Shown here piece after piece: positions 1,672 to 33,799 of a DNA stretch of 37,633 bases; position 1 is the first letter of the stretch; each line of letters starts with the position of its first letter. The notes under the pieces are model-generated. The model ran no database searches and was not told the origin of the DNA. It saw only the letters and a list, made by a program, of their open reading frames with translations. The position numbers and the translations under genes were made by a program. The stretch spans positions 23,148 to 60,780 of the forward strand of contig VBJK01000070.1 in assembly GCA_005879655.1 (NCBI GenBank), written 5' to 3'. This DNA is from Chloroflexota bacterium (GTDB lineage Bacteria; Chloroflexota; Ktedonobacteria; Ktedonobacterales; Ktedonobacteraceae).

Positions 1672-3876
1672 TTAGCGCCTCCCGAACTCGTGCGCTAGCG
1701 CAGATAAGCTAAAATGGACCATGGTGGGACGGCCATGACAGCAGCTATACGGCGCTCTGGTCTGTTCCAACTGCTCGATCATTTCACGCATCTCACTCAC
1801 CGTCAAGAAATAGTTTTGTTTAATGGCCGCCTTGCAAGCCACATTTGCCAGGGCGCGCTCTTCCCACGTCTCGGTATGACCGAGTTGTGTAGGGGCCGTC
1901 AGATCTACTAGCAATTCATGCAGTGAGCGCACATTCATATGCTTGACTAGCACATTGGGCACTGCTCGCACCTCAACCGTCTTGCCATCAGTAATCTCCA
2001 GCTGAAAACCAATGTGCGCTAATTGCTGCTGATGCTCATCAACCGTTTCTAGCTCATTAGGTGATAGTGTAAGTTGCATAGGTGAGAGTAAGAGTTGTGA
2101 GAGTGGTGCACACGCTTTTAATGCTACAACCATCCGTTCCAACAAAATACGCTCATGGGCGGCGTGCTGATCAATTAAGTACATGCCATCCTCACCCTCA
2201 GTGACAATATAGCTCTGCGAGAGCTGACCAACGACGCGCAAACGTGGTAAGCGTCGTGTTTGCTGGGGATCAATCGTCTCAGGGCAACCACCAGGGATTG
2301 CCCCTACAATGGACGACGGATCGGCCACCGAGGTATCTTCGTTCCATTGTGGGGGCAATCCCTGGTGGTTGCCCTGGGGGGGTGGGGGGCTGATTTGAAC
2401 GGTATTGGAGGGCATTTGCCAAGCTTCATTGTCCTCATCAGCCTGTGCAGGCAGAGCGGGATTGGCCCCAGGGCAACCACCAGGGATTGCCCCTACAATG
2501 GACGACGGATCGGCCACCGAGGTATCTTCGTTCCATTGTGGGGGCAATCCCTGGTGGTTGCCCTGGGGGGATGGGGAACGTGTCGTATCTTTTTGCTCAG
2601 ACGGGCGTATATGGCTCTGCCACAGACGCGAGCTTGGCGGTGGTTTTGTACCGGTCTCCTCTTCCGTCACCGTTAGCCAGGGATTATCTGGCGGCAGTGG
2701 ATGATGAGGGCGCGTTGTCTTGGTCTCTATACTAGCAGTCTCTGCTGTGAGTTCCTCGGTTATTGTCTCGCCTACAGCTTCATCAAGCTCGTCTAGCGCC
2801 GAAAATTGATTATCCGGCGGACTAGCCGTCACCGCAGATGATGTGCTTTTGCGCGGCTTCCACTGCGGCATCTCTGGCTCTTGCAAAAGCGTCTGGCGTA
2901 CAGCACGAAGCACTGCCGCGAAGACCCGCCGCTCCTTGAGAAAACGAATCTCCGTTTTGGCCGGGTGGACATTGACATCGAGCAGGGTCGGATCGACCTG
3001 GATATTAATTACTGCAATTGGGTGACGGCCCGTCAATAACAACGAGCGATAGGCCCCCTCAACGGCCTCCGTCAACATACGACTTAATACCCAACGTCGG
3101 TTCACAAAGAAAGAGATGTGTTGGCGCGTACTTTTATAACAAACAGGCCGACTGGTATAGCCGTTGACAACAGGATGCTCTGTATCCCCCGCTCGCTCCT
3201 CAGCGACGACGGCGACCATCTGTTCCGCTATCTGTAAACCATATACCTCGACGAGCACGCTTGCCAGCCGTCCATCACCGGGCGTTGCGAAAATTTGTCG
3301 TGTCTCGCTAAAGATGGTAAAGCGAATCTCAGGATAAGCTAGCGCGTACTGCTCCAGTAAGTGGTGGCAGTGCCCGACCTCCGTATTGCGGCTCTTGAGA
3401 AACTTCAGACGGGCAGGCACCGCACTGAAGAGGTTCCGCACGGTAATAGTAGTTCCTTCGGGCGAAGCTGCGGTGCTTACTTCTGAGAGTTGTCCATTCG
3501 TTGCACTGATCTGCGCCCCCTGCTCTGAGCCACGTAGCCGACTGAGTAGCGTCACTTCCGCGACCGCCGCAATGCTCGCCAATGCCTCGCCGCGAAAACC
3601 AAGCGAACGAATATGCTCAAGGTCATCAATCTGAGTCACCTTACTGGTGGCATGGCGCGCGAGTGCCAGCGGCAATTCATCAGTAGCAATCCCAGAACCA
3701 TTGTCAGTGATACGGATCAGTTGTAGTCCCCCACCCATCAGATCAACACGGATCTGGGTGGCTCCGGCATCGATGCTATTCTCTATCAGTTCCTTCACGA
3801 CGGAAGCAGGCCGCTCTACCACTTCTCCGGCAGCGATTTTGGCAGCCACATCAGGTGCGAGTTGTCTTATGGGCAT
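1672..3876 (-). CDS. mutL: DNA mismatch repair protein MutL (endonuclease type)
   Basis: MutL couples mismatch recognition by MutS to strand incision. The GHKL ATPase domain has ENSIDAG (about residue 33), DNGSGI (about 60) and GFRGEAL (about 94). The C-terminal domain has the metal-binding endonuclease motif DQHAAHERILLE (about 569-580), ACKAAIKQN (about 680) and CCHGRP (about 712, usually CPHGRP), so this is a nicking MutL rather than the E. coli type. I chose the ATG at 3876 (protein of about 734 residues), which has an AGAGGA ribosome site 8 nt upstream; a longer frame from 3936 adds 20 residues absent from the family. The proline-rich linker holds two copies of a hairpin repeat that encode an identical 32-residue stretch beginning QGNHQGLPPQWN. 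priA follows after 4 nt. Confidence 0.96.
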   Translation of the reverse strand: MPIRQLAPDVAAKIAAGEVVERPASVVKELIENSIDAGATQIRVDLMGGGLQLIRITDNGSGIATDELPLALARHATSKVTQIDDLEHIRSLGFRGEALASIAAVAEVTLLSRLRGSEQGAQISATNGQLSEVSTAASPEGTTITVRNLFSAVPARLKFLKSRNTEVGHCHHLLEQYALAYPEIRFTIFSETRQIFATPGDGRLASVLVEVYGLQIAEQMVAVVAEERAGDTEHPVVNGYTSRPVCYKSTRQHISFFVNRRWVLSRMLTEAVEGAYRSLLLTGRHPIAVINIQVDPTLLDVNVHPAKTEIRFLKERRVFAAVLRAVRQTLLQEPEMPQWKPRKSTSSAVTASPPDNQFSALDELDEAVGETITEELTAETASIETKTTRPHHPLPPDNPWLTVTEEETGTKPPPSSRLWQSHIRPSEQKDTTRSPSPQGNHQGLPPQWNEDTSVADPSSIVGAIPGGCPGANPALPAQADEDNEAWQMPSNTVQISPPPPQGNHQGLPPQWNEDTSVADPSSIVGAIPGGCPETIDPQQTRRLPRLRVVGQLSQSYIVTEGEDGMYLIDQHAAHERILLERMVVALKACAPLSQLLLSPMQLTLSPNELETVDEHQQQLAHIGFQLEITDGKTVEVRAVPNVLVKHMNVRSLHELLVDLTAPTQLGHTETWEERALANVACKAAIKQNYFLTVSEMREMIEQLEQTRAPYSCCHGRPTMVHFSLSALAHEFGRR
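2281..2375. repeat. Family B hairpin repeat in mutL, copy 1
   Basis: Inverted repeat with 32-bp arms at 2281-2312 and 2344-2375 (AGGGCAACCACCAGGGATTG... against its complement; one mismatch) around a 31-bp centre. It is read in frame as part of the MutL linker. Copy 2 lies 189 bp away, which is 63 codons. Confidence 0.9.
2470..2564. repeat. Family B hairpin repeat in mutL, copy 2
   Basis: Same 95-bp unit as 2281-2375, with arms at 2470-2501 and 2533-2564 and the same centre sequence. The near identity of both arms and centre suggests recent duplication of one inserted element rather than two independent insertions. Confidence 0.9.
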
Positions 3877-3988
3877 AGTATAGTCCTCTGGCAAAGTTTT
3901 TTGTGGTACGTTTAAGAACGAGTGTTCATAGGGCATAATAACATAGATGTGGTGCCGGGTACAAGAAGCAGTCTCATTGGGGGATGAC

Positions 3989-8213: not shown

Positions 8214-8596
8214 GCTATTCCCCTGAGTTAAAATATTTTACCTAGAACACGCAACAGAGCCGGAAGATGTTTCAAGGGGTGACTGGCAAGCTCTCGTCTT
8301 GCACACCTACGCGTGCCAATCACGTGTATTGTGCACTATGCCCAAAATATAGCTCTTCTTTTTTTGCGATTTAGCCCTATCTACCGCATAGTCTCGATCA
8401 CTATACTATATAGTAGGCAGTTTACGATGAAAAATAGCATTGCTCCTGGCTTGTCTATGAACTGTTGACAAATCACAATCCACAACATATCGGCAAGGAC
8501 CCTGCCGATTTCGTCTCTGGTGGTTCGGCGTCTTGTATGATATACTAGATGCACGGGACTTTGTTGTCTAAACAAGTTGAAAGGCAACTAGAGCAG
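8214..8596. other. Intergenic region between receiver gene and kinase
   Basis: It holds the shared upstream region of two divergent genes. A TTGACA at 8465-8470 lacks a good -10 at the right distance. The best plus-strand signal is the extended -10 at 8538-8546. A short hairpin (CGGCA...TGCCG, 8491-8507) lies between them. I see no gene here. Confidence 0.5.
8538..8546 (+). promoter_or_regulatory. Extended -10 promoter of the kinase gene
   Basis: TGA-TATACT (8538-8546) matches an extended -10 element; no clear -35 is present. It would start transcription near 8553, which makes the ATG at 8549 unusable and supports the ATG at 8597 as the kinase start. Confidence 0.4.
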
Positions 8597-9184
8597 ATGA
8601 CCACGACGTATACATCAGGTACGAGAGTCGATCATTACGAGATTATTCGTATGTTGGGTCATGGTGGCATGAGTTATGTCTACCTGGCATATGATGCCAC
8701 CAATCAGCAAAAAGTGGTTTTGAAATTCCCCAACGCGGAGCTTCTCGGTGATATTGCCGTCTTTGAGCGCTATAGGCGCGAAGCAGAGATTGGGAATCGG
8801 GTCCGCCACCCCAATGTACAGCAGGTACTCAACGCAGACGAAAAGCGCACTGCTGACTACCTGGTTGTCGAATATATCCAGGGACGTACCTTGCGCTCCG
8901 TGCTTGAAGATTATGCGCCTGGCCCTCTCCCAGTGACAGATGCTATCAATATTACTATACAAATCTGTGAAGCTCTGGCATGTTGTCATGAAAAAGGCGT
9001 CGTTCATCGTGACATTAAACCAGAGAATATCATGATCCGGGACGATGGCACAATCAAGATTATTGATTTTGGGATTGCCTTATTAGAAGGGGCGCGGCGC
9101 GTTACCTGGCGCGGCCTCTCTGGTACTATGGGCACACCCGACTATATGTCACGTGAGCAACTCAAAATATATTTGCAATTATGA
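8597..9184 (+). pseudogene. Ser/Thr protein kinase, 5' part (broken by internal deletion)
   Basis: Hanks-type kinase lobe with the glycine loop LGHGGMSYVYLA, ATP-binding Lys43 in VVLKFP, catalytic loop HRDIKPENIM, DFG in IIDFGIALL, and GTPDYMSREQ (an APE-region variant). The frame then stops at 9182-9184. The homologous sequence resumes at about 9166 in another frame as NIFAIMNQHVSQDPP. Roughly 30 residues of the C-lobe (the DxYxLG and LTGxxPF segments) are missing at the junction, so a deletion of non-multiple-of-three length joined the two parts. The start at 8597 is preferred (see promoter). A truncated product lacking helices F-G is unlikely to be an active kinase. A metallophosphatase gene follows. 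Confidence 0.85.
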
Positions 9185-9492
9185 ATCAGCACGTCTCACA
9201 AGATCCCCCCTCGATTGTGCGTGCAAATGCCAACATTTCGCCAGAGCTAGCCACCGTCGTGATGCGCGCCATTCGACGCGATCATGATAAACGTTATAAA
9301 TCAATGAAAGAGTTCCTCCACGATCTGCGCAACCTGGAAGAGGTCAAGCCGGTCCCCTACGAGCCAGATGCACCTACCTTAAATCGCACTGGCAGGACCG
9401 TGCTTAGCGCCTCACTGATCATTATTGCTATTTGTTTAGTGATTATCACCCTGGGCTTCCTCGTACAGTTTATTCACCATGCCATACGCTAG
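9181..9492 (+). pseudogene. Ser/Thr protein kinase, 3' part with C-terminal membrane segment
   Basis: Continuation of the kinase in a shifted frame. The end of the C-lobe is recognisable (ISPELATVVMRAIRRDHDKR and the following YKSMKEFLHDL helix), then a short linker and one transmembrane helix (LSASLIIIAICLVIITLGFL). In the parent protein this tail would anchor the kinase in the membrane with almost nothing outside. The ATG at 9181 is simply the Met of the conserved MNQHVS motif and has no ribosome site, so separate expression is doubtful. Homology actually begins at about 9166. Confidence 0.8.
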
Positions 9493-13712: not shown

Positions 13713-14177
13713 ATGCATTTTGACTTATATCACTGGCTCTTCGATGATCCGATTACAGCGGCTTCTAATGCAGGTCAGAGCACGCCAGAGGTGTTCCATT
13801 ACCTATGGCCCTGGCTGATTTTCTGCTGTGTAGGACTGTTGCTTACTTTTTATTATTCCGTTGAGGGGCGTAAGCGCTTCGTCAAGAGTAAGCTTCTTGC
13901 TAAGCGTATGCTGGACCAATACCTCGGTTGGTTTGCCGTCATTTGTTTCGTTGGACTGCCGATACTCTTCTCGCGTGTCTACCTGGAAGGCTATTTCTTT
14001 GCTTGGCGCGTGTGGCGTTACCTCTGGCTGGTAGCATTGATCTGCTGGGCTATTACCTGGATCGTCTATCTTGTGAGAAAATACCCACAAGAGCGAGCCA
14101 GTCTTCAGGCATATCAGAAGCGTCAACAATACATTTCCAAGGGTAGCAAACGTAAAGCAAAAGCTGCTTCCCGCTAG
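13713..14177 (+). CDS. Small membrane protein of unknown function
   Basis: I do not recognise a family. The 154-residue protein has three hydrophobic helices: PWLIFCCVGLLLTFYY (about 33-49), WFAVICFVGLPILFS (about 73-88) and YLWLVALICWAITWIVYLV (about 103-121). It ends in a strongly basic tail (KRKAKAASR), so the C-terminus is probably cytoplasmic. AAGGAG lies about 11 nt before the ATG. mobA starts 16 nt after its stop on the same strand, so the two are likely cotranscribed. A link to the molybdoenzyme on the opposite strand is only positional. Confidence 0.75.
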   Translation: MHFDLYHWLFDDPITAASNAGQSTPEVFHYLWPWLIFCCVGLLLTFYYSVEGRKRFVKSKLLAKRMLDQYLGWFAVICFVGLPILFSRVYLEGYFFAWRVWRYLWLVALICWAITWIVYLVRKYPQERASLQAYQKRQQYISKGSKRKAKAASR

Positions 14178-14193
14178 GAAACAGAGTCAATAC

Positions 14194-14811
14194 ATGATGA
14201 AACGTACCGCAGCAGGAATTATTCTCGCTGGCGGACAAAGCAAGCGTATGGGCTGTGATAAAGCTTGCTTGCCCTTGCCTGGTGCAGAGCACATGACCTT
14301 TCTGCAACACCTGACCGAGATGCTTCTATCCTTGTGCTCTGAAGTTGTAGTGGTTGTACGCGATACGGCTCAGTTTGCAGAAACGGGGGTCCATCAGCTG
14401 CCCGCTGTGCGTATGATTGCCGACGATATTCCCAACTATGGCCCTTTGATGGGTCTGCATAGTGGTTTACGCACAATCACTACTTCTCATGCGCTAGTCA
14501 TGGCTGTAGATATGCCTGATGTCCAGCCCGTTGTTGTTTCATTGCTCCTTACGCCGCCTCTCTCGGAGGCGATACGGGTCCCGCTCGTGGGTGATATTCC
14601 GCAAGTGTTGCTCTCCGTTTATCCTCGCTCTGTTCTCCCATTGATCGCAGCGTGTTTGCAAGCTGGTAGACGTGATCTGCGCTGTCTCTTGCGCGTTGCC
14701 CAGGTTGAATATATCGCAGAGACGCAATTGCGCGCGCTCGATCCTGCGTTACGCTCGTTTGTGAATGTGAATAGACCACATGATTTATCGCTATTGCATA
14801 ATCCCCTGTGA
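14194..14811 (+). CDS. mobA: Molybdenum cofactor guanylyltransferase MobA
   Basis: MobA attaches GMP to Mo-molybdopterin to make the MGD form. The nucleotide-binding loop ILAGGQSKRMGCDKA is at about residues 8-23, followed by the family's IADDIPNYGPLMGLHSGL and a metal-binding Asp in MAVDMPDV (about 108-111); length 205 is normal. An adjacent ATG codon at 14197 could also start; the AGGAAACAG upstream is rather distant. It converges on a sulfite-oxidase-like molybdoenzyme, separated by a repeat hairpin. Sulfite-oxidase-family enzymes normally carry unmodified Mo-molybdopterin and do not need MobA, so the two need not be one pathway. A related nucleotidyltransferase (MocA-like) is the main alternative. 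Confidence 0.87.
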   Translation: MMKRTAAGIILAGGQSKRMGCDKACLPLPGAEHMTFLQHLTEMLLSLCSEVVVVVRDTAQFAETGVHQLPAVRMIADDIPNYGPLMGLHSGLRTITTSHALVMAVDMPDVQPVVVSLLLTPPLSEAIRVPLVGDIPQVLLSVYPRSVLPLIAACLQAGRRDLRCLLRVAQVEYIAETQLRALDPALRSFVNVNRPHDLSLLHNPL

Positions 14812-14972: not shown

Positions 14973-16580
14973 TTACTCAACATTCACTATAATTTGATGG
15001 TAGCCAGTCGCACCGTTAGGGACGGTCCCTTGTTGCTGGTTCGTCTGAGTTTCTCCCGTGCCATCGGTTGCTCTGGCAACCAGCGTATACTTACCGGGCT
15101 GGGTGGGATGCCAGGGCAAGCGCCAGAACCGCCAGCTATCCGGCGAAAGGGGTTGGTCCAGATTAGCCTGTTGCCAGCTTCCTCCGCCATCCGTGCTCAC
15201 CTCAACGCGTTGAATGCCACGATTCCCAGCGAAAGCTATGCCGCCGATCTCAACCGTCTGCCCTGAGATCAACTGGCCTCGCGGATGATCGATACGACTG
15301 ATTGTGTGTAACGGGCCGTTATACCAGCCCTGACTGGAATAGAGACCCTGCACAAAGTGGTCGGTCAAATGCACACGCGTCACCCACTTGGGATTCTCTT
15401 CACCATAGCGCCCTGGCACGAGTACGCGCAAGGGATAACCATGGCGTGCAGGCAGTTCCGCGCCATTCATACGCCAAGCCAGCAAGGCATCAACTGCCAG
15501 TACTTCGTCCAGTGGGAGGCTGATAACATAGCCATCAACGCTAGAGAAGGCGACAAAGCGGGCTGTCTTTTGCGCCCCACCGTGGCGTTCCAGCACAGTA
15601 CGCAGCAAGACGCCTTGCCAGATGGCCGTGCTGATCAGATGATCACCAATGCCGTTAGCAATACATTCCAAGGTAATCGCCCGCGAGATCGAGGGCAGCT
15701 TTTGCACTTCTTCGTAGGTATATGTACCAGGAGTGTGTACCAAACCTCCGATCTCCAGCCGCCACAGGGCAAGATTGGGCGTTGGGTCCACGGTATTTTG
15801 CGTCACGACATAGTGTTGATCATTTGGGGTAATGGGAGCCACCATGTCGTTATGAGGCCACGTCTTCGTGCCATCATAGCTCGTATAGTCCTGCAAATAA
15901 CGTTGTATCAGTCCGAATGAAGCTGCACCCGCCCCTAAAGCCAGGGTGGCCACGCCACTTCGCGCCAGTAATTGCCGTCGTTTCTGGGCAACGGTTGGTC
16001 TATCAGGCTGGCTTTGTCGGGGTAGCAGTAATCGATAGGCCAGACAAAGCGTCAGGCCATAGAGACTAAAGTCTATCAACAGACTAAGGATGGTGATCAG
16101 TACTGCCCAACCGAATGGCAGACCAAACTGGTTGCGAGCGAGTTCATTCCAGAACAGCAGGGTGGCGATCAACGTCATGCCCACCGCGAAGCCCAGTGCG
16201 GTAAGCCCTTCCCGTTTGCCCGGTCGCACGCTACTCGCAGGCAGTGGTACACGTACGAGTGCAGCGTACAGCCAGCTTAGTGCTGTACCAACGGCGATCA
16301 TGCCCAGCAATGCTAACCCTAGAGGCGTTTTTTTTGCATTAACACCAAAGGTAATCAGCAAGCGCACGAAGGTATCTACATCAAGGTGTTTGAGTACATA
16401 GTCACCAAAGAGTGTTATTGGCGCGGGTGCTCCTAACGCAAAGTAGAGTACGCCCATAATCATGACTGCGACCAGACTGGCAACCAGACCTGCTCCTGGT
16501 GCCAGCAGAGCCGCGATCAGTAGAGCCTTGCGCCTACTATAACTTTGAGGAAGTGCGGGAGATGGTACTGCCTTGTCCAT
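14973..16580 (-). CDS. Membrane-anchored sulfite oxidase-like molybdopterin oxidoreductase
   Basis: Protein of 535 residues in three parts. Residues of about 20-185 form about five transmembrane helices; an RRQLL stretch and hydrophobic segment follow (about 201-225), resembling a Tat-type anchor. Residues of about 260-410 form the sulfite-oxidase molybdopterin fold, with the Mo-ligand Cys306 in LECIANGIGDHL and the HGYPLRVLVPGRYG segment. The C-terminal 110 residues match the Mo-co dimerisation domain (VEIGGIAFAGNRGIQRVEVS, STDGGGSW). The catalytic domain should face the outside. ATG at 16580 with GAAAGGGAA upstream; the longer frame begins with TTG. Last gene of a five-gene same-strand block, 33 nt after the GT-C gene. 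The substrate is unknown. Confidence 0.9.
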   Translation of the reverse strand: MDKAVPSPALPQSYSRRKALLIAALLAPGAGLVASLVAVMIMGVLYFALGAPAPITLFGDYVLKHLDVDTFVRLLITFGVNAKKTPLGLALLGMIAVGTALSWLYAALVRVPLPASSVRPGKREGLTALGFAVGMTLIATLLFWNELARNQFGLPFGWAVLITILSLLIDFSLYGLTLCLAYRLLLPRQSQPDRPTVAQKRRQLLARSGVATLALGAGAASFGLIQRYLQDYTSYDGTKTWPHNDMVAPITPNDQHYVVTQNTVDPTPNLALWRLEIGGLVHTPGTYTYEEVQKLPSISRAITLECIANGIGDHLISTAIWQGVLLRTVLERHGGAQKTARFVAFSSVDGYVISLPLDEVLAVDALLAWRMNGAELPARHGYPLRVLVPGRYGEENPKWVTRVHLTDHFVQGLYSSQGWYNGPLHTISRIDHPRGQLISGQTVEIGGIAFAGNRGIQRVEVSTDGGGSWQQANLDQPLSPDSWRFWRLPWHPTQPGKYTLVARATDGTGETQTNQQQGTVPNGATGYHQIIVNVE

Positions 16581-16613
16581 GATGTTCCCTTTCAAATGTT
16601 GGGGTTATTGTAT

Positions 16614-18251
16614 CTATGCATTTCTATTTGACTCATTGGTATTTGATGTGTATACTTTCCCTCTGGGGAGGCAGAAGGAGGCCAATGTTCTTTTTCGACC
16701 CGTTCGGGATTGAAACGCCAGTCCCAGAGCTAGCAGCGAGAGGTCGTAAGCCAAAAGGTAGTAGAGACTCCAATCGACCTTCCCATCGAAGAGATAACCC
16801 AAGATGGAAGCGCTACTGAAATACCAAGCAGTGCATACAGCCAAGCATGCGGGGCAATACCATTCAAGGGCACCCACAAGGGATGCCCCTACAATGGTAC
16901 GCGCACGTCCTATGATGCGCGTTCGTACCATTGTAGGGGCATCCCTTGTGGGTGCCCTGTAAGGGCGAACGCCCGTTCTGTAAGGCTTATTTGACTGGTA
17001 TTGTCCCTTGTGCGCCCCTTGGATGGCCTCATTTGACTGGTATTGTCCCTTGTGCGCGCTTTGCTGGTGCGTGTACAAAGCCACCCATGGCAATAGCGCT
17101 GCGGTGTACCAGGGGAAAATGTGCGAAGCAGCGGCAAAAATGGCTCCGATGAGCACAAGGATTCCAGCTTCGACGCTGATGCGCTCGCCCTGGCGCAGAC
17201 GCAAAACGATTAACGCAGCGCTACCGACGAGTGCGAGATCGAGCACGTAGATGAGTATCATGGTCAGTACTATATCCAGATGCATAGTCATGGCAAGCCA
17301 ATTGATCACCTGCATGATTATGCCAGCATTGGAAGTGCGCTCACTCGCGTAGGTTGCGAAAAAGCCAAGAATCTGGCCGTGGCCCAGCACGATGTAAGGA
17401 ACGTATGCCAGCAGGATGGTCGTGATGCACGAGGCCAGCAAGGCCCAATCGCGCTTCCGCAAGAATACAGCCAGCAATAACACAGGATAGATTTTGGTGA
17501 GCGCCGCTAATGCCAGCAAAACCCCGGTAAGCACACGCGACCCACGTCGCGTACTTTGTGCACAGACCACAGTGAGCAGCATTAGCATTATCGTCAGCGC
17601 ATCGATATGGCCCTGAATAGCGAACTCAATGATCGGCAGTGGTGCCCAAGCGTAGATCACGCAACGGGCGGGATCACTACCACGCTTCTTCAGCAACCAG
17701 GCCAGTGCACAACAGGAGACGATTTCACAAATGGTAAGCAGGACTTTGAAGACCACAAGGTTCGCGGGGGCCAACAGGTAGCTCAACAGATAGAACCCCT
17801 GTGCCACGGGCGGGTAGAGCGTTGGCACATTGCGGAAACGGATAATCCCATAGAGGAAATCGTCGCGTAGTGGCAACAATTGAGGATCGCCGGGCGCATA
17901 GACATAGGGACTGTAGCCGTGTAGCGTCACCCGTGCATCCCACAGATAACGCCAGGAATCGTGCGACAGGTCCGGCTCAATGGGCAGGAGTATCCCGCGC
18001 AACAGCAACGCTCCCCCCAGCACAACAAGCAACTCTACCCACTGACGATACCCACTGCTTGCTCGTGTGCAGAGGATGAGCAAGCAAGCAGCGAGATAGG
18101 GCAGAAATGCCAGCAACCAGAGCACAATGAAAGCAGAAACATCCGTGTCCACAGGCGGAGCCATATGCCCCAGCACCAAGTTATAGGCCACAGACAACAA
18201 CAATAACGTGCACAGCAAGGGCAGTCGCCAGCGTTGCAAGAATGTGCCCAC
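16614..18251 (-). CDS. Polytopic GT-C glycosyltransferase (mannosyltransferase-like) with repeat-derived insert
   Basis: A 545-residue membrane protein with about ten helices. The N-terminal loop DLSHDSWRYLWDARVTLHGY matches the acidic loop of polyprenyl-phosphate-dependent GT-C enzymes (GT87/mannosyltransferase type), followed by NVPTLYPPVAQGF. It would transfer a sugar from a lipid carrier on the outer face. The GTG start at 18251 sits 1 nt after the natural stop of the upstream radical SAM reading frame (18253), showing tight coupling. Oddities: about residues 398-462 (from AHKGQYQSN, present twice, to IVGASLVGALEW) are encoded by a tandem 42-bp repeat and a 35-bp-arm hairpin, and the C-terminal tail (CLPRGKVYTSN) is family D repeat. 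The exact sugar is unknown. Confidence 0.85.
   Translation of the reverse strand: MGTFLQRWRLPLLCTLLLLSVAYNLVLGHMAPPVDTDVSAFIVLWLLAFLPYLAACLLILCTRASSGYRQWVELLVVLGGALLLRGILLPIEPDLSHDSWRYLWDARVTLHGYSPYVYAPGDPQLLPLRDDFLYGIIRFRNVPTLYPPVAQGFYLLSYLLAPANLVVFKVLLTICEIVSCCALAWLLKKRGSDPARCVIYAWAPLPIIEFAIQGHIDALTIMLMLLTVVCAQSTRRGSRVLTGVLLALAALTKIYPVLLLAVFLRKRDWALLASCITTILLAYVPYIVLGHGQILGFFATYASERTSNAGIIMQVINWLAMTMHLDIVLTMILIYVLDLALVGSAALIVLRLRQGERISVEAGILVLIGAIFAAASHIFPWYTAALLPWVALYTHQQSAHKGQYQSNEAIQGAHKGQYQSNKPYRTGVRPYRAPTRDAPTMVRTRIIGRARTIVGASLVGALEWYCPACLAVCTAWYFSSASILGYLFDGKVDWSLYYLLAYDLSLLALGLAFQSRTGRKRTLASFCLPRGKVYTSNTNESNRNA
16619..16713. repeat. Family D repeat, copy 2, supplying the end of the GT-C gene
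   Basis: Similar to 13562-13654: TTGACTCATTGGTATTTGAT, GTGTATACTTTCCC, CTCTGGGGAGG, GCCAATGT, ending GGGATTGAAA. On the minus strand it encodes the last residues of the GT-C protein, so the original C-terminus was probably replaced or extended by the element. Confidence 0.75.
16867..16958. repeat. Family B-like hairpin inside the GT-C gene
   Basis: Perfect 35-bp inverted repeat, arms 16867-16901 and 16924-16958 (AGGGCACCCACAAGGGATGC... to GGTACG), 22-bp loop. It is related to the mutL and 33694-33799 elements through AAGGGAT-GCCCCTACAATGG, and is translated in frame as RDAPTMVRTRIIGRARTIVG. Confidence 0.9.
16989..17057. repeat. 42-bp tandem duplication inside the GT-C gene
   Basis: Two copies of ATTTGACTGGTATTGTCCCT plus TGTGCGC at 16989-17015 and 17031-17057, 42 bp (14 codons) apart. 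They encode the repeated peptide AHKGQYQSN next to the hairpin insert, on a loop following a transmembrane helix. Confidence 0.85.
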
Positions 18252-18252
18252 G

Positions 18253-18471
18253 TTAGTAGCTCCAATTCAGGCCGCATTGGGCACAATGTCGAGCAGGCGT
18301 CTCGCTCTCAAAGGCACGCCGAAAAGCCTGGTAGCGTTCCCCTTGCCAGATAGCGGCAATCGGCTCCTGAAAGACGTTTCCCAGCACACGCTCTTCGTAG
18401 TATTCGCGTGCGCTACGGTGCCCAAAGGGTGCAAAGCAGCAGGAGAGTACATTGCCGCTGGATGTAATATA
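18253..18471 (-). pseudogene. Detached C-terminal (SPASM-like) segment of the radical SAM protein
   Basis: In a frame shifted from the radical SAM gene, 72 codons read YITSSGNVLSCCFAPFG, then GNVFQEPIAAIWQGERYQAF and HCAQCGLNWSY before a TAA at 18253-18255. This is the Cys-rich auxiliary-cluster tail expected of radical SAM/SPASM enzymes. It has no start of its own (a TGA at 18472-18474 precedes it). Its stop lies 1 nt before the GT-C start, so this was the original end of the gene. Confidence 0.85.
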
Positions 18472-19208
18472 TCACGCGTGATACTCTCCAATGGGGAGGC
18501 GGCACCGGCAGCTCTGAAGCGGATACCTCGCTCCTTACTCATCCGCTCACAGCGGTGCACAATCTCCATCTCTTCAGCGGTGGCGCGATGGAACAGAGCC
18601 TGCTGCTCAGTTGCCAGACCTTTTTCAAAGTACACAAAGCGCTGCATATAGACCTCGCCCACCCCATACTGACCCGCTAACTCGACGAGAGCAGGTAATT
18701 CGTGCAGGTTGGTACGCATGGCCGTAAACCAGAGTGAGACTGCTGGCTTTTCTGCTTGGCGCTCCTTTTGTAAGGCGACAAAGGCTTGCACATTGCGCCA
18801 GATCTTGTCAAACGCGTCAACTCCGCGTACCCTGGCATAGGTCTCGCGTGTAGCGCCATCCATTGAGAGACGATATTCGTCGAGTCCAGCGTCAATCAGC
18901 TCCTGACCCTTGCGGTCCGTGAGGACGATACCATTAGAATTGAAGAGTACATAAGTGCCACGCTCCTTTAAATAACGAATCATGAGCGGTAACTCGCTAT
19001 TGAGTAGTGGCTCGCCCAGACCATGTAGCACTACGCGTTCCAGGATCGGAAACTGATCGACGATCTCACGAAACTTCTCAAAACTGAGGTCGCGGTCGTC
19101 CTCACGCGAGAGGAGTGTACGCGGACACTGTTGGCAGAACTCGTTGCAACGACTGGTCGGTTCGATATAGATCGAACGGGGCAGCGTGACGAGCGTAGTG
19201 GTAGTCAT
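18267..19208 (-). CDS. Radical SAM protein with frameshifted C-terminus
   Basis: The radical SAM core is intact: IEPTSRCNEFCQQCPR with Cys21, Cys25 and Cys28 (the CxxxCxxC [4Fe-4S] site), VVLHGLGEPLLN (GGE-like motif), and RLSMDGATRETYARVRG (SAM-binding region). After about residue 248 (LESITR) the frame departs from homology; the expected WRxCxWPW segment is missing and the SPASM-like tail continues in another frame at 18471-18253. So a deletion of about 15-20 codons plus frameshift removed at least one auxiliary cluster ligand. Start: ATG at 19208 overlaps the upstream TGA by 4 nt (ATGA), with AGGGGG upstream. The substrate is unknown; neighbours are glycosyltransferases. Likely a pseudogene unless this is an assembly error. 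Confidence 0.85.
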   Translation of the reverse strand: MTTTTLVTLPRSIYIEPTSRCNEFCQQCPRTLLSREDDRDLSFEKFREIVDQFPILERVVLHGLGEPLLNSELPLMIRYLKERGTYVLFNSNGIVLTDRKGQELIDAGLDEYRLSMDGATRETYARVRGVDAFDKIWRNVQAFVALQKERQAEKPAVSLWFTAMRTNLHELPALVELAGQYGVGEVYMQRFVYFEKGLATEQQALFHRATAEEMEIVHRCERMSKERGIRFRAAGAASPLESITRDILHPAAMYSPAALHPLGTVAHANTTKSVCWETSFRSRLPLSGKGNATRLFGVPLRARRLLDIVPNAA

Positions 19209-19891
19209 AGCAAACCCCCTGACAAAGAGCAAATTACCGCTGCACTGAGGGGCGCTAACTCCGGCTGAACTGTTAGTAGCGCTTTCAACCTCAGCAGCTC
19301 CGGCAATTCATCAATATCGAAGAGCGGCTCTAACAGGTGGACGCTGAGGCCCAACCTGTGTGCCCGCTCCATAGTCATCTGTAGGACCTGTGGTGTACTC
19401 ATCGGTATCTTACTGAAGAGGTCATATGGCTTGCGCATGGCAATGAGATAGTAACCGCCATCTTCTGCTGGACCGAGTACCACATCAGCCCCTTCTAGGG
19501 CCTGGCAAGCCTGAGTGATCATCTCACGACCAAGCTGTGGCGCATCAGAGCCGATGAGAATAGTTTGCTGGAAACCAAAGGCGGCAGTCGTGTGAAAGGC
19601 ATGGCGCAAGCTACTGCCGAGATCTGGACCACACTGCGCAAAGTAGCGACTCGCCCTGGCAGACGGTACCAGAGCTGTCACATTCAGCGCGAAATCGGCC
19701 TCGCTGGGCGTATAGGCCCAATACATAGTATATGCCTCCTCTTGCCAGCCCGCGAAACGTTGCGCGAGATCACTCAGAAAGGCTTTATAGATACGTAGCG
19801 TTTCAGACGTGCCGATAGTCACCGCCAGGCGCGTCTTCACCTTCCCCTCTTCCGGGTTGCGCGCCATTACCACCAGCGCGGTTTTAGCCAT
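19205..19891 (-). CDS. TIGR04282/DUF2064-type transferase
   Basis: Nucleotidyltransferase/glycosyltransferase-like GT-A fold protein of 229 residues. The N-terminus MAKTALVVMARNPEEGKVKT with the following RLA is the family hallmark, and ILIGSDAPQLG and VVLGPAEDGGYYLIAM match the conserved Asp-containing and DGGYxLIG motifs. The family was named for association with radical SAM/seleno-domain genes and is now often labelled arsenosugar biosynthesis glycosyltransferase; no arsenic genes are visible here. The ATG at 19891 overlaps the end of the GT2 gene by 8 nt, and its TGA overlaps the radical SAM ATG by 4 nt, so translation is coupled. A longer frame from 20041 would run through the GT2 gene and is rejected. 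Confidence 0.87.
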   Translation of the reverse strand: MAKTALVVMARNPEEGKVKTRLAVTIGTSETLRIYKAFLSDLAQRFAGWQEEAYTMYWAYTPSEADFALNVTALVPSARASRYFAQCGPDLGSSLRHAFHTTAAFGFQQTILIGSDAPQLGREMITQACQALEGADVVLGPAEDGGYYLIAMRKPYDLFSKIPMSTPQVLQMTMERAHRLGLSVHLLEPLFDIDELPELLRLKALLTVQPELAPLSAAVICSLSGGLL

Positions 19892-20237
19892 GGCTCTGCC
19901 TTGCGCTCGCGTAACGCAGGGTGGTGCTAAGCATACTGTACGCCGCTTTGATGCTGCCCCGCAAGGTTCCAGCCACTTTCGAGCGACCCGCCATGCGACG
20001 GCGATAGCGCAGATCGACCTCCTCAATGCGATAGCCCGCACGAGCCGCCTTCAGGAGCATCTCTACCGGCCAGCCAAAAGTCATCTCCTGCATGTGGAGC
20101 GCAGCTAATTCGCTAGCCCGTATCACCCGAAACGACCCAATATCATGAAGATGCACGCTGTACATCATATTGAGTAGACGACTCACCAGCCAGTTTCCCA
20201 GCCTTGCCTGAGGGGGCACTGCGCCCTTCTCGGCATG
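19884..20237 (-). pseudogene. Family 2 glycosyltransferase, 3' part
   Basis: C-terminal half of a GT2 (DPM/DPG synthase-like) enzyme: HAEKGAVPPQARLGNWLVSR, DIGSFRVIRASELAAL, EMTFGWPVEMLLKAARAGY, then EEVDLRYRRRMAGRSKVAGT with the conserved arginine-rich and GxSK motifs. It is out of frame with the 5' part at 20143-20556, and about 20 residues between PADL and HAEKGA (the region ending GSR) are missing. The frame opens at 20339, but sequence upstream of 20238 is out-of-frame with the homologous part. The end overlaps the next gene by 8 nt. Confidence 0.85.
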
Positions 20238-20556
20238 TAAGATCAGCGGGATTGTCGCTACCATCTCCATCCATAAAAACGATGATCTCAGCTCCTTGCG
20301 CCACAGCTTTTTGAAAACCTTGCCAGCAGGCACGTCCATAGCCCCGTTGTAGCTCCTCTATAACCAATGCACCTGCCGCACGCGCCACAGCAGCAGTCGC
20401 ATCACTACTCCCATTATCCACCACAATTACCTGCTGCCCCACAAGCTCTGGCAACAAGCTACGCAGGCTCTCCTCCTCATTCAATGCGGGAATGACAATG
20501 GCAATATTTTTCTGGGCATCCATAACGTCAATCTTTGCTCCTCTCGACTTTAGCAT
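20143..20556 (-). pseudogene. Family 2 glycosyltransferase, 5' part
   Basis: The GT-A nucleotide-sugar domain begins normally: IAIVIPALNEEESLRSLLPE, IVVDNGSSDATAAVARAAGA, and the metal-binding DxD in FMDGDGSDNPADL. At about 20240 homology leaves this frame and continues in the other (19884-20237), so residues after PADL here are missense. ATG at 20556 has AAAGGA 5 nt upstream; the ATG at 20523 is an alternative. It is the first gene of the five-gene block. The intact enzyme would make polyprenyl-phosphate-linked sugar or extend a glycan. Confidence 0.85.
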
Positions 20557-22275: not shown

Positions 22276-23904
22276 TCAATTTGACGTTGCTTGATTACTC
22301 CGTCTGTCATAATGGTGACTGATCCTTTCACTATATTGATGCCTCACTGTAGCAACAATGAAGTAGAGAATGGGCAGACCGAAGATGAGTCCCGCCTGAT
22401 ACATGACCATCGGTGCACGACTGAAACCTACAAACGGGTAAATAAAGAGGGCTGTGCCCGAAAGCAGTAGCAGCGTAATGGTGAAGGCGTCCAGACGACG
22501 TAGCACGGTGACAGCTGGCAACCACAGGACATACCAGGGCCAGAACCAGCCAGAAACAAGCACTAGATACCAGAATATAGCACAAGCCCAGCCCGTCAGG
22601 AGTACCTCAAAGCCCGGTATACGCATATACGCATCGCCTTCTGAGCTATCCTGCGGGTTCGTCCAGCTGGTAGGAACATCTCGTACTTGTGCAAAAAGAT
22701 GCATATAGATAAGAATGAAGATAAAGATAGCTGAAGCGCGTACTGTAATATCTGCCGCTGATACAGGTTGCAGAAAGGCAGGAAAATGTGCCCACCGTGC
22801 GAAACCCTGGAATAGAGCGCGTATAGGAAAGGTCAACGTACTGATCGGCGCATGAATGAAGTGTTCCATATCAATGGCAGACGTGATGGCAAAGAAGGTG
22901 GTAGCACCACGCCAGAATGGCAATAAGATGAGTACAACGGGCAAAAACATGAGTAACAAACGCCAACAGAAGCCCCAAGTTGCCCGCGCCATATTACGCT
23001 CAGTGCGCATATCAAACCATGCGAACAGAGGTGCCAGCAAGAGCGTGACAAAGTTTATGCTTATCGCCAAGCCAAGCAGCAGCAGGCTACCAACTACCAA
23101 TACGCGCTTTTGGCCCTGTACATAGAGCCAGAGTGCCAACAAAATGAACATGGTGAGTAGCCCTACATTGTGTCCTCCCCCGGCTAGCTCGATCAGCGCA
23201 AGAGGATTCCATGCGTAGAGCAGTGCTCCAGTCACTTGACGAGCAGGCGCGATCTTGCCCAGAATCACCCAGATCAGTAAACAGTTTATAAGATGTGCAA
23301 TCAGCGCGCAACCTTTGAAGAGCAATAATGAGATTGCAGGATCATTGCTTATCCAGGACAATAACGCGGTAATACAGAGCCACAAAGGACCAAAGATATT
23401 CGGACTATTGCGCCCCGAAAAGACCCAGACTAAGTATGGATCATGGGGAAATTGTATGGGAGCTGTATTGAGCGGATCAGTCCCATAGACTGTCATGAGG
23501 CGTCCTGAAAACATATACGTGAAAACGTCATCCGAAAATAGCAAGGGCTGAAAGAGGATTGTTACTCCGAAGAGCAGTGCCCCCGCCAATAACAGGTAGA
23601 GATAGCGTTGTTGAGCACGTATGCACGATCGATGTGTAACTCTGATAGCATAGGCATAAGCTGCTAACAAGCCTGTAAAAGTAAGACCAAGTAACAGCGA
23701 AGGTAGCCCTGTATGGTTGGATGTTATAGCAGGAGAATAATTATACAAGATCACGAGAATATGCGAAGGGAATAACGTCCATGACCATACATTAGGTAAT
23801 GGTGTGCTACTGAGATGTAATGCGGGCAGTGGCGCAAGAGCCACAATGAGTAAACAGAACAGTTCACTAATACAAGCAAGCGCTAATAAGCAGAAGAGAG
23901 TCAT
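22276..23904 (-). CDS. Polytopic GT-C glycosyltransferase, second copy type
   Basis: Membrane protein of about 542 residues with 11-13 helices. The loop LLFSDDVFTYMFSGRLMTVY followed by GTDPLNTAPIQFP, and NIFGPLWLCITAL, correspond to the acidic catalytic loop and periplasmic motifs of mannosyltransferase-like GT-C enzymes. WNPLALIELAGGGHNVGLL is the other conserved stretch. The start is unclear: the open frame reaches 24012 with TTG, but residues up to there (WRNKLRNYG) are encoded by family A repeats. ATG at 23904 opens just before the first helix but has AAGG directly against it; a TTG nearby at about 23937 is an alternative. It is not adjacent to the 16614-18251 homologue, but the two may act on one glycan. 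Confidence 0.85.
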   Translation of the reverse strand: MTLFCLLALACISELFCLLIVALAPLPALHLSSTPLPNVWSWTLFPSHILVILYNYSPAITSNHTGLPSLLLGLTFTGLLAAYAYAIRVTHRSCIRAQQRYLYLLLAGALLFGVTILFQPLLFSDDVFTYMFSGRLMTVYGTDPLNTAPIQFPHDPYLVWVFSGRNSPNIFGPLWLCITALLSWISNDPAISLLLFKGCALIAHLINCLLIWVILGKIAPARQVTGALLYAWNPLALIELAGGGHNVGLLTMFILLALWLYVQGQKRVLVVGSLLLLGLAISINFVTLLLAPLFAWFDMRTERNMARATWGFCWRLLLMFLPVVLILLPFWRGATTFFAITSAIDMEHFIHAPISTLTFPIRALFQGFARWAHFPAFLQPVSAADITVRASAIFIFILIYMHLFAQVRDVPTSWTNPQDSSEGDAYMRIPGFEVLLTGWACAIFWYLVLVSGWFWPWYVLWLPAVTVLRRLDAFTITLLLLSGTALFIYPFVGFSRAPMVMYQAGLIFGLPILYFIVATVRHQYSERISHHYDRRSNQATSN

Positions 23905-23964
23905 CCTTCTACGGTGAATCTGTTGATATGTTCTCAAAAAGGTGTCATCCTTCTTCCCATAATT

Positions 23965-24153
23965 GCGCAATTTATTGCGCCATGCCCGCCACAAATACCC
24001 GTAGCTGCGCAATTTATTGCGCCTGGTTTTCTTTATTATTATCCCTGGCGCAATAAATTGCGCAGCTACCCTTTTCTCTCTTTTTATCCTTGGTGCAATT
24101 TATTGCGCAGCTACCCTTCTATCTCTTTTTATCCTTGGTGCAATTTATTGCGC
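23965..24153. repeat. Family A repeat array, 45-bp period plus inverted pair
   Basis: Five cores GCGCAAT-TT-ATTGCGC or close variants at 23965, 24007, 24048 (inverted), 24093 and 24138. Cores at 24007 and 24048 with flanks form a 23-bp perfect inverted repeat (GTAGCTGCGCAATTTATTGC...). From 24060 the unit GCGCAGCTACCC + pyrimidine-rich spacer repeats with 45-bp period. It lies between the purB stop and the GT-C start. Confidence 0.9.
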
Positions 24154-33693: not shown

Positions 33694-33799
33694 GGGAGTA
33701 GGGCAACCACAAGGGATTGCCCCTACAATGGACGGCTCTCAGCCTGCAAGGTACTCTCGTACCATTGTAGGGGCAATCCCTTGTCGTTGCCCTGCTCCC
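33694..33799. repeat. Family B hairpin repeat, intergenic copy
   Basis: Inverted repeat with 38-bp arms at 33694-33731 and 33762-33799 with two mismatches (GGGAGTAGGGCAACCACAAG... and complement), 30-bp centre. It is the same family as the mutL copies but with CACAAGG for CACCAGG and a different centre. It lies between the DUF1385 and phosphatase genes, and ends about 7 nt before the phosphatase ribosome site. Confidence 0.9.

Follow-up and report, generated by a model that had tools for sequence, protein, structure and literature searches.

A gene set recurrent in Ktedonobacteria adds a radical SAM protein and a putatively exported molybdoenzyme to candidate genes of lipid-linked glycosylation

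Glycosylation outside the cytoplasm from lipid-linked sugars is a known kind of pathway. The three-component Gtr systems and the Citrobacter ribofuranose system, as described in the accessible part of PMC11127046, combine a family 2 glycosyltransferase (GT2) of the prenyl-phosphate-sugar-synthase type with a GT-C membrane glycosyltransferase, and add enzymes that tailor the sugar. In the mycobacterial methylthioxylose pathway, by the description in the accessible parts of PMC8780516 and PMC11127046, a synthase likewise makes the prenyl-phosphate donor that a GT-C protein uses, and the sugar is a modified pentose. Here we analyze a five-gene block that codes for the same kind of pair. It lies at 14973-20556 on the minus strand of a 37,633-nt stretch of a Ktedonobacteraceae genome (contig VBJK01000070.1, positions 23,148 to 60,780; this whole stretch is called the window below), and contains, all in the same direction, genes for a GT2, a DUF2064/TIGR04282 protein, a radical SAM protein, a GT-C protein and a molybdoenzyme. 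We hold it to be slightly more probable than even that these genes form a conserved extracytoplasmic glycosylation pathway with an unusual sugar, built on a prenyl-phosphate-sugar synthase, a GT-C protein and an exported molybdoenzyme. The general kind is known and the radical SAM/molybdoenzyme variant is new; the literature searched, which leaves most subscription journals outside its coverage, held no title on this gene set.

A sequence-only reading of the window had described five compactly arranged same-strand genes with junctions of 8, 4, 1 and 33 nt, and the coordinates agree with it. The GT2 stop (19884) and the DUF2064 ATG (19891) overlap by 8 nt, the DUF2064 stop (19205) and the radical SAM ATG (19208) by 4 nt; a single nucleotide separates the radical SAM stop in its ancestral frame (18253-18255) from the GTG of the GT-C gene (18251), and 33 nt lie between the GT-C stop (16614) and the ATG of the molybdoenzyme (16580; the listed TTG start is at 16595). 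The DUF2064 (19205-19891), GT-C (16614-18251) and molybdoenzyme (14973-16580) genes are open. The arrangement was therefore described correctly, but the title of that reading omitted that the other two genes, for the GT2 and the radical SAM protein, are broken.

The block is confirmed as real and beyond chance because its gene set recurs in other genomes: it is conserved in the class and is found again in another phylum. Among 47 Ktedonobacteria genomes, 26 carry the radical SAM protein, counted at E below 1e-50. TIGR04282 exceeds its cut-off in 25 of these 26 compared with 2 of the 21 others, and in the exception (G006) the DUF2064 piece is severed by a contig end. The block-type molybdoenzyme (E 1.9e-118 or better) is present in 25/26 and 0/21 genomes respectively; a second molybdoenzyme subfamily is widespread and aligns mainly over the catalytic domain, and the boundary between the two was fixed after the gap from 1.9e-118 to 2.6e-89 had been seen. 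The GT-C protein is found in 25/26 and 8/21. The strongest pair is that of radical SAM protein and molybdoenzyme (25, 1, 0, 21; Fisher value 1.8e-12), although such values overstate the association because the genomes share ancestry. A scan of the genome collection confirmed 19 loci, 18 of them Ktedonobacteria by title and one from Tengunoibacter, which we take to belong to the same class. Protein relatives were listed as the best 120 of 2217 and the best 120 of 7975 matches, and 20 of the former 120 were aligned.

Gene distances add structure to this picture. Within 5 kb of each other we find DUF2064 and radical SAM genes in 21/25 genomes and GT-C and molybdoenzyme genes in 20/24, compared with 13/25 for radical SAM and GT-C and 12/25 for radical SAM and molybdoenzyme, some of the misses being contig ends. 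Together with the co-retention, these distances show two tight modules, GT2-DUF2064-radical SAM and GT-C-molybdoenzyme, which a genome retains jointly even when they lie apart, by 57 kb (G035), 59 kb (G036), 66 kb (G003), 0.84 Mb (G037) or 3.4 Mb (G004). All five families share one neighbourhood, in several orders, in 9 of the 26 genomes (G001, G027, G028, G029 (Dictyobacter), G002, G017, G021, G022 and G024); the order GT-C-radical SAM-molybdoenzyme interleaves the modules at three loci (L048, L050, L051), and GT2 and DUF2064 are fused in G022 (L048) and G014 (L091). The search of many genomes that the sequence-only reading had proposed thus leaves it unrefuted: the set is not confined to the window, and the GT-C and molybdoenzyme genes are usually close. 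Its single coupled block is borne out by co-occurrence and linkage, but has to be relaxed in that the two modules are often apart and the GT-C family is exchangeable.

Some further genes accompany the set. A histidine kinase and a response regulator were placed near the block by clustering at L048, L049, L051 and L052 (three of these partly checked with Pfam), and a pyridoxal-phosphate (PLP) aminotransferase after the molybdoenzyme at L048, L049 and L050 (L049 checked with Pfam). The aminotransferase is a sometime member of the gene set. A BLASTP comparison of the aminotransferases of L049 and L098 gave a best E of 0.04, no real similarity, so that they share a Pfam family and a single orthologue is not supported. 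The neighbours of the GT-C-molybdoenzyme module in Ktedonobacter-type genomes, by eye a betaine-type transporter and an oxidase-like protein, look local to that lineage and were set aside.

Outside the class, 400 Chloroflexota genomes were drawn, of which 35 carry the radical SAM protein; 26 of these are the Ktedonobacteria set, and the remaining nine give ten loci. A GT2 or DUF2064 gene lies near the radical SAM gene at eight of the ten (the exceptions are L068 and L073, the gene of the latter lying at the end of a contig). The membrane protein belongs to DUF2079 at L064, L066 and L071, and by clustering at L065, and to YfhO at L069 and L070, and by clustering at L068. L064 has the order of the window, GT2-DUF2064-radical SAM-DUF2079-molybdoenzyme, and the molybdoenzymes at L069 and L070 are placed with the block type at moderate support (83/82). 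L067 combines an aminotransferase-DUF2064 fusion, a molybdoenzyme, a radical SAM protein (listed from a Dehalococcoidia metagenome-assembled genome, P0243) and a GT2. At L066 (485-4993) DUF2079 is fused to a GH31 glycosidase.

The set reappears on plasmids of another phylum. A tblastn search with the Dictyobacter radical SAM protein matched 3 of 72,556 plasmid records, and both Methylobacterium radiotolerans pNYY1_1 and M. aquaticum pMaq22A_2p carry a one-strand operon in the order cytochrome b561, molybdoenzyme, hypothetical protein, DUF2064, GT87, radical SAM, GT2 and aminotransferase, in which adjacent genes overlap by 4 nt or are separated by no more than about 20 nt. Identities to the best Chloroflexota match are 47% (radical SAM), 48% (GT2), 42% (DUF2064) and 38% (GT87). 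The Methylobacterium molybdoenzyme has 257 amino acids (aa), begins with a twin-arginine and lipobox-like segment, and is 36% identical to the Mo domain of the window enzyme over 154 columns. Relatives of this Methylobacterium-type enzyme at L102 (3022-6131) and L101 (3307-5944) stand with a cytochrome b, an MXKDX-repeat protein and a sigma factor, a group that, as we see it, resembles a periplasmic sulfoxide-repair module; in Kozakia this relative also lies with msrA and msrB. In Miltoncostaea oceani (Actinomycetota), a GT87-GT2 fusion and a DUF2064-NUDIX fusion (L100, 5711-6895) lie 4 to 6 kb from a radical SAM gene, which is itself adjoined by a kinase/regulator pair. Co-occurrence, linkage, the Methylobacterium recurrence and the fusions together support the earlier claim that the five families form one pathway.

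The families suggest what such a pathway might do. The N-terminal piece of the window GT2 matches PF00535 and the C-terminal piece has a partial match, below cut-off, to the AglJ model TIGR04182. Among solved structures, an intact relative (L002) matches DPM synthase (5mlz, E 4e-14) and ArnC (E 5e-6), glucosyl-3-phosphoglycerate synthases being further solved relatives; it scores 131 bits with AglJ, below the cut-off of 325, and its match to the PpgS model is also below cut-off. By sequence comparison, then, the GT2 is related to prenyl-phosphate-sugar synthases. This relatedness and the GT87-GT2 fusion agree with the proposal that the GT2 would make a lipid-linked sugar for the GT-C protein. 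The DUF2064 protein (PF09837; TIGR04282 at 173 bits, cut-off 134) is CofC-like and of GT-A fold; the one relative with a solved structure is the putative nucleotide-sugar transferase 3cgx. The literature found assigns no chemistry to DUF2064/TIGR04282 or to this radical SAM family.

The radical SAM motif CX3CX2C is present in 17/17 alignment rows as well as in the window copy. All 17 relatives also share the end motif C255-X12-G-X4-C273 ... C325-X2-C328, which we read as a twitch-like auxiliary-cluster set and which is missing from the window's own open reading frame (ORF), whose end is out of frame. Sequence relatives are BtrN, MoaA, PqqE, GDGT-MAS and BlsE (cytosylglucuronate decarboxylase), and the first fold neighbours are BlsE and DesII (structure model with pLDDT 66; Foldseek best-hit TM-scores of about 0.4 to 0.5). 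The substrates of BtrN and DesII are cyclitols or sugars. The GT-C protein of the window belongs to GT87 (PF09594, 55 bits against a cut-off of 25) and shares 45 to 60% identity with its Dictyobacter counterparts; profile comparison found no solved relative.

The molybdoenzyme combines Oxidored_molyb (PF00174) and Mo-co_dimer (PF03404) domains of the sulfite-oxidase family behind a membrane part. Its structure model (pLDDT 69) shows five long helices followed by the Mo domain, and hydropathy gives four strong helices and a weak fifth. An RRxLL motif precedes this fifth helix, and its two arginines (R206-R207) are invariant in all 20 molybdoenzymes aligned (the window's and 19 of the best 120 of 699 matches). 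The Mo domain is placed outside because basic loops, judged by eye, lie on one side of the membrane. Taken together, the model, the hydropathy and the twin arginine suggest that the enzyme is exported by Sec plus Tat with its Mo domain at the outer face, in keeping with the outer-face location proposed earlier; confidence in the two structure models is modest (pLDDT 66 and 69), and a second Foldseek search gave a TM-score of 0.25 by query length. In the same 20 rows, helices 2-4 contain no conserved haem histidine, so that b haems are not predicted; the only column with His in at least six rows is column 70 (16/20), in the loop after helix 1. C311 is invariant (20/20) and aligns to the SorA cysteine that we take to be the Mo ligand. 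The positions of SorA Arg55 and His57, presumably substrate-site residues, are occupied by Val264 and Gln266, again in 20/20, with Lys for Gln266 in more distant members, which argues against a standard sulfite dehydrogenase. The curated models also score below their cut-offs (SoxC 147/420, SorA 133/600 and SorT 116/570 bits), and membership of the sulfite dehydrogenases was rejected on both grounds. The protein collection holds a molybdoenzyme (P0121) that is 98% identical to that of the window.

The substrate, step order, product and redox direction that we infer are as follows. The DUF2064/TIGR04282 protein would activate a sugar phosphate with a nucleotide, and the twitch-type radical SAM enzyme would alter the sugar by epimerisation, oxidation or a similar reaction. 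The GT2 would transfer the altered sugar to polyprenyl phosphate, the GT-C protein (GT87 here, DUF2079 or YfhO elsewhere) would use this lipid-linked donor at the outer face, and the molybdoenzyme would carry out a redox step there, either oxidation or reduction. The sketch in the sequence-only reading was close to this overall, each of its chemical steps being conditional in the same way.

Several observations weigh against this pathway. No flippase gene was found among the five block genes in a Pfam scan, although one may sit elsewhere in the genome, and no acceptor gene was found in the block. A GT-C relative occurs without the remaining genes in 8 of the 21 genomes that lack the radical SAM protein, so that the GT-C protein alone is not specific, and the shared ancestry noted above tempers the statistics. 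Outside the class a molybdoenzyme was seen at only 4 of the 10 loci (L064, L067, L069 and L070), that of L064 being a very long branch of unsure placement; none is annotated in the Miltoncostaea stretch that was read. The Methylobacterium molybdoenzyme belongs to another subfamily: relatives of it occur in 384 plasmid records, two of which were inspected and have no sugar genes near them. The enzyme of the Methylobacterium operons would thus be either a different Mo protein taken on for the same function or a neighbour by chance. Finally, the best NCBIfam matches of the radical SAM protein are metalloenzyme-maturase models, far below cut-off.

A special case of the proposed pathway, which we consider unlikely, is that the sugar carries a thioether and is made, as in mycobacterial methylthioxylose, from a 5-deoxy-pentose that derives from S-adenosylmethionine. 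At the outer face the molybdoenzyme would then reduce, or else form, the sulfoxide of this sugar, which would provide the surface with a renewable redox shield. The idea of a methylthio-type sugar arises because methylthioxylose provides a precedent and because the Methylobacterium molybdoenzyme is nearest to MsrP, albeit below cut-off (80 bits against 207), one relative of that enzyme adjoining msrA and msrB. Methylthioxylose starts from methylthioadenosine and relies on the GT2-type synthase MtxS, the GT-C protein MtxT and a prenyl-phosphate donor (accessible parts of PMC11127046 and PMC8780516); its sulfoxide is present on a glycan (accessible part of PMC8531672), and anti-oxidative properties have been proposed for it (accessible part of PMC10503756). 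However, no thio-sugar gene was identified, the likeness to MtxS and MtxT is one of general description, and the window molybdoenzyme matches MsrP weakly (48 bits; cut-off 207), behind SoxC, SorA and SorT. One may extend the idea to a surface thioether sugar, made by the radical SAM enzyme and shared across phyla, that would act as a renewable oxidant sink, its sulfoxide being reverted by the outer molybdoenzyme, which would be linked to cytochrome b in Methylobacterium and be a haem-free single protein in Chloroflexota; we rate this extension as rather improbable.

The strongest co-occurring pair, radical SAM protein and molybdoenzyme, would also be expected if the molybdoenzyme were matured by the radical SAM protein, possibly together with DUF2064, and the glycosyltransferases were a separate matter. 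The maturase models among the NCBIfam matches (TIGR04311 and TIGR04317) and the CofC-like, NTP-transferase fold of DUF2064 fit this explanation. However, these matches are all far below cut-off, the radical SAM gene is more often within 5 kb of GT2-DUF2064 than of the molybdoenzyme, and fusions tie DUF2064 to GT2. Moreover, two distinct molybdoenzyme subfamilies accompany the radical SAM protein, and Miltoncostaea has the radical SAM, GT2, GT87 and DUF2064 proteins with no molybdoenzyme in the stretch. We therefore regard maturation as improbable. The separation of the two modules in many class genomes, and the GT-C relatives in the eight genomes that lack the radical SAM protein, could instead suggest two neighbouring systems with unrelated jobs. 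The modules are co-retained even at a distance, however, and the interleaved orders, the Methylobacterium operons and the GT87-GT2 fusion also make this quite improbable. Biosynthesis of an F420- or mycofactocin-type redox cofactor for the molybdoenzyme would draw on the CofC-like DUF2064, a weak MftF similarity of the GT2 and a weak mycofactocin-maturase match of the radical SAM protein, but no precursor-peptide gene was identified and a role outside the cell is suggested both by the Mo domain at the outer face and by the GT-C partner, which leaves this explanation very improbable. Arsenosugar biosynthesis, to which the TIGR04282 match and the label of the M. aquaticum gene would point, we rejected as having almost no likelihood, as the sequence-only reading had also done: the GT2 reaches 41 bits (window piece) and 37 bits (intact relative) against the TIGR04283 cut-off of 182, none of the 28 ORFs scanned, out of 53 listed in the window with at least 100 aa, gave an ArsM/ArsS-like match, and no arsM or arsS is annotated in L098-L100.

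Whether the proposed extracytoplasmic glycosylation pathway still operates in the window's organism is a separate matter. Compared with five intact relatives the GT2 gene is 65 nt short, and its broken frame leaves an N-terminal piece resembling prenyl-phosphate-sugar synthases (20143-20556) and a C-terminal piece in another frame (19884-20339, the ORF extending upstream and the family part starting near 20230). The radical SAM gene is 49 nt short compared with four intact relatives: the ORF that remains (321 aa, 18267-19208) keeps the core domain (PF04055) and has lost the auxiliary-cluster domain, a remnant of which, compared with P0002, reads in the ancestral frame at 18253-18473 to NWSY and the stop. 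Unless these two deletions are faults of the assembly, the pathway has probably been lost, or is being lost, in this organism. Other radical SAM copies in the Ktedonobacteria (P0008, P0073, G026, G036 and G045) are likewise frameshifted or split. A programmed frameshift in this gene was rejected because the breaks sit at different places, which makes independent loss or sequence error likelier.

Palindromic and direct repeats form an in-frame patch in the GT-C gene (about 16860-17063), yet its ORF stays open. The palindromic repeat, with the core CCATTGTAGGGGC in inverted pairs, occurs at 2300-2356, 2489-2545, 16885-16940 and 33719-33774; two of these pairs lie within the mutL ORF (1672-3936) and one, in frame, within the GT-C ORF. 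The core has 8 matches in the window compared with 0.84 expected. Beside the molybdoenzyme, the plus strand carries genes for a mobA-like NTP transferase and a small membrane protein (13713-14811). Relatives of both lie 3' of the molybdoenzyme, in its orientation, in Dictyobacter (L001, L002 and L004), and a relative of the small one does so at L003. Upstream of the block, at 22276-24012, a second membrane protein has no Pfam match and scores 34 bits with MptB (cut-off 40); it is possibly another GT-C mannosyltransferase. A protein-kinase ORF at 8549-9492 breaks off after position 169 of the Pkinase profile, which has 263, and an ORF of 103 aa comes next and overlaps it; this may be another broken gene.

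We can now place the block among the systems that it resembles. The arsenosugar cluster consists of arsS, TIGR04282 and TIGR04283. The block is like it in having TIGR04282 next to genes for a GT2 and a radical SAM protein, and differs in that its GT2 fails TIGR04283, no arsM or arsS was found and the radical SAM protein is a different one. With MsrPQ/YedYZ it shares an external Mo domain of the sulfite-oxidase fold, and in the Methylobacterium version also a separate cytochrome b, whereas the window enzyme scores far below the MsrP cut-off and has a haem-free membrane part of its own. The accessible descriptions of the methylthioxylose pathway mention neither a radical SAM protein nor a molybdoenzyme (PMC8780516, PMC11127046). 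Relative to the Gtr and Citrobacter systems, as far as the accessible part of PMC11127046 describes them, no flippase gene is seen in the block, the GT-C protein is GT87, DUF2079 or YfhO and not GT136, and a radical SAM protein, DUF2064 and a molybdoenzyme are added. The recurrence in Chloroflexota and on plasmids of cultivated Methylobacterium makes the functions of DUF2064/TIGR04282 and the radical SAM protein testable. The Sec/Tat molybdenum-cofactor (MoCo) proteins of the Sco3746 type, in the accessible part of PMC5449189, share with the window enzyme five helices, a twin arginine directly before the fifth and a C-terminal Mo domain, whereas the window enzyme has no conserved histidines in helices 2-4. 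If the proposed pathway is correct, extracytoplasmic glycosylation would gain a step carried out by a molybdoenzyme, and the molybdoproteins inserted by Sec and Tat would gain a branch that lacks haem.

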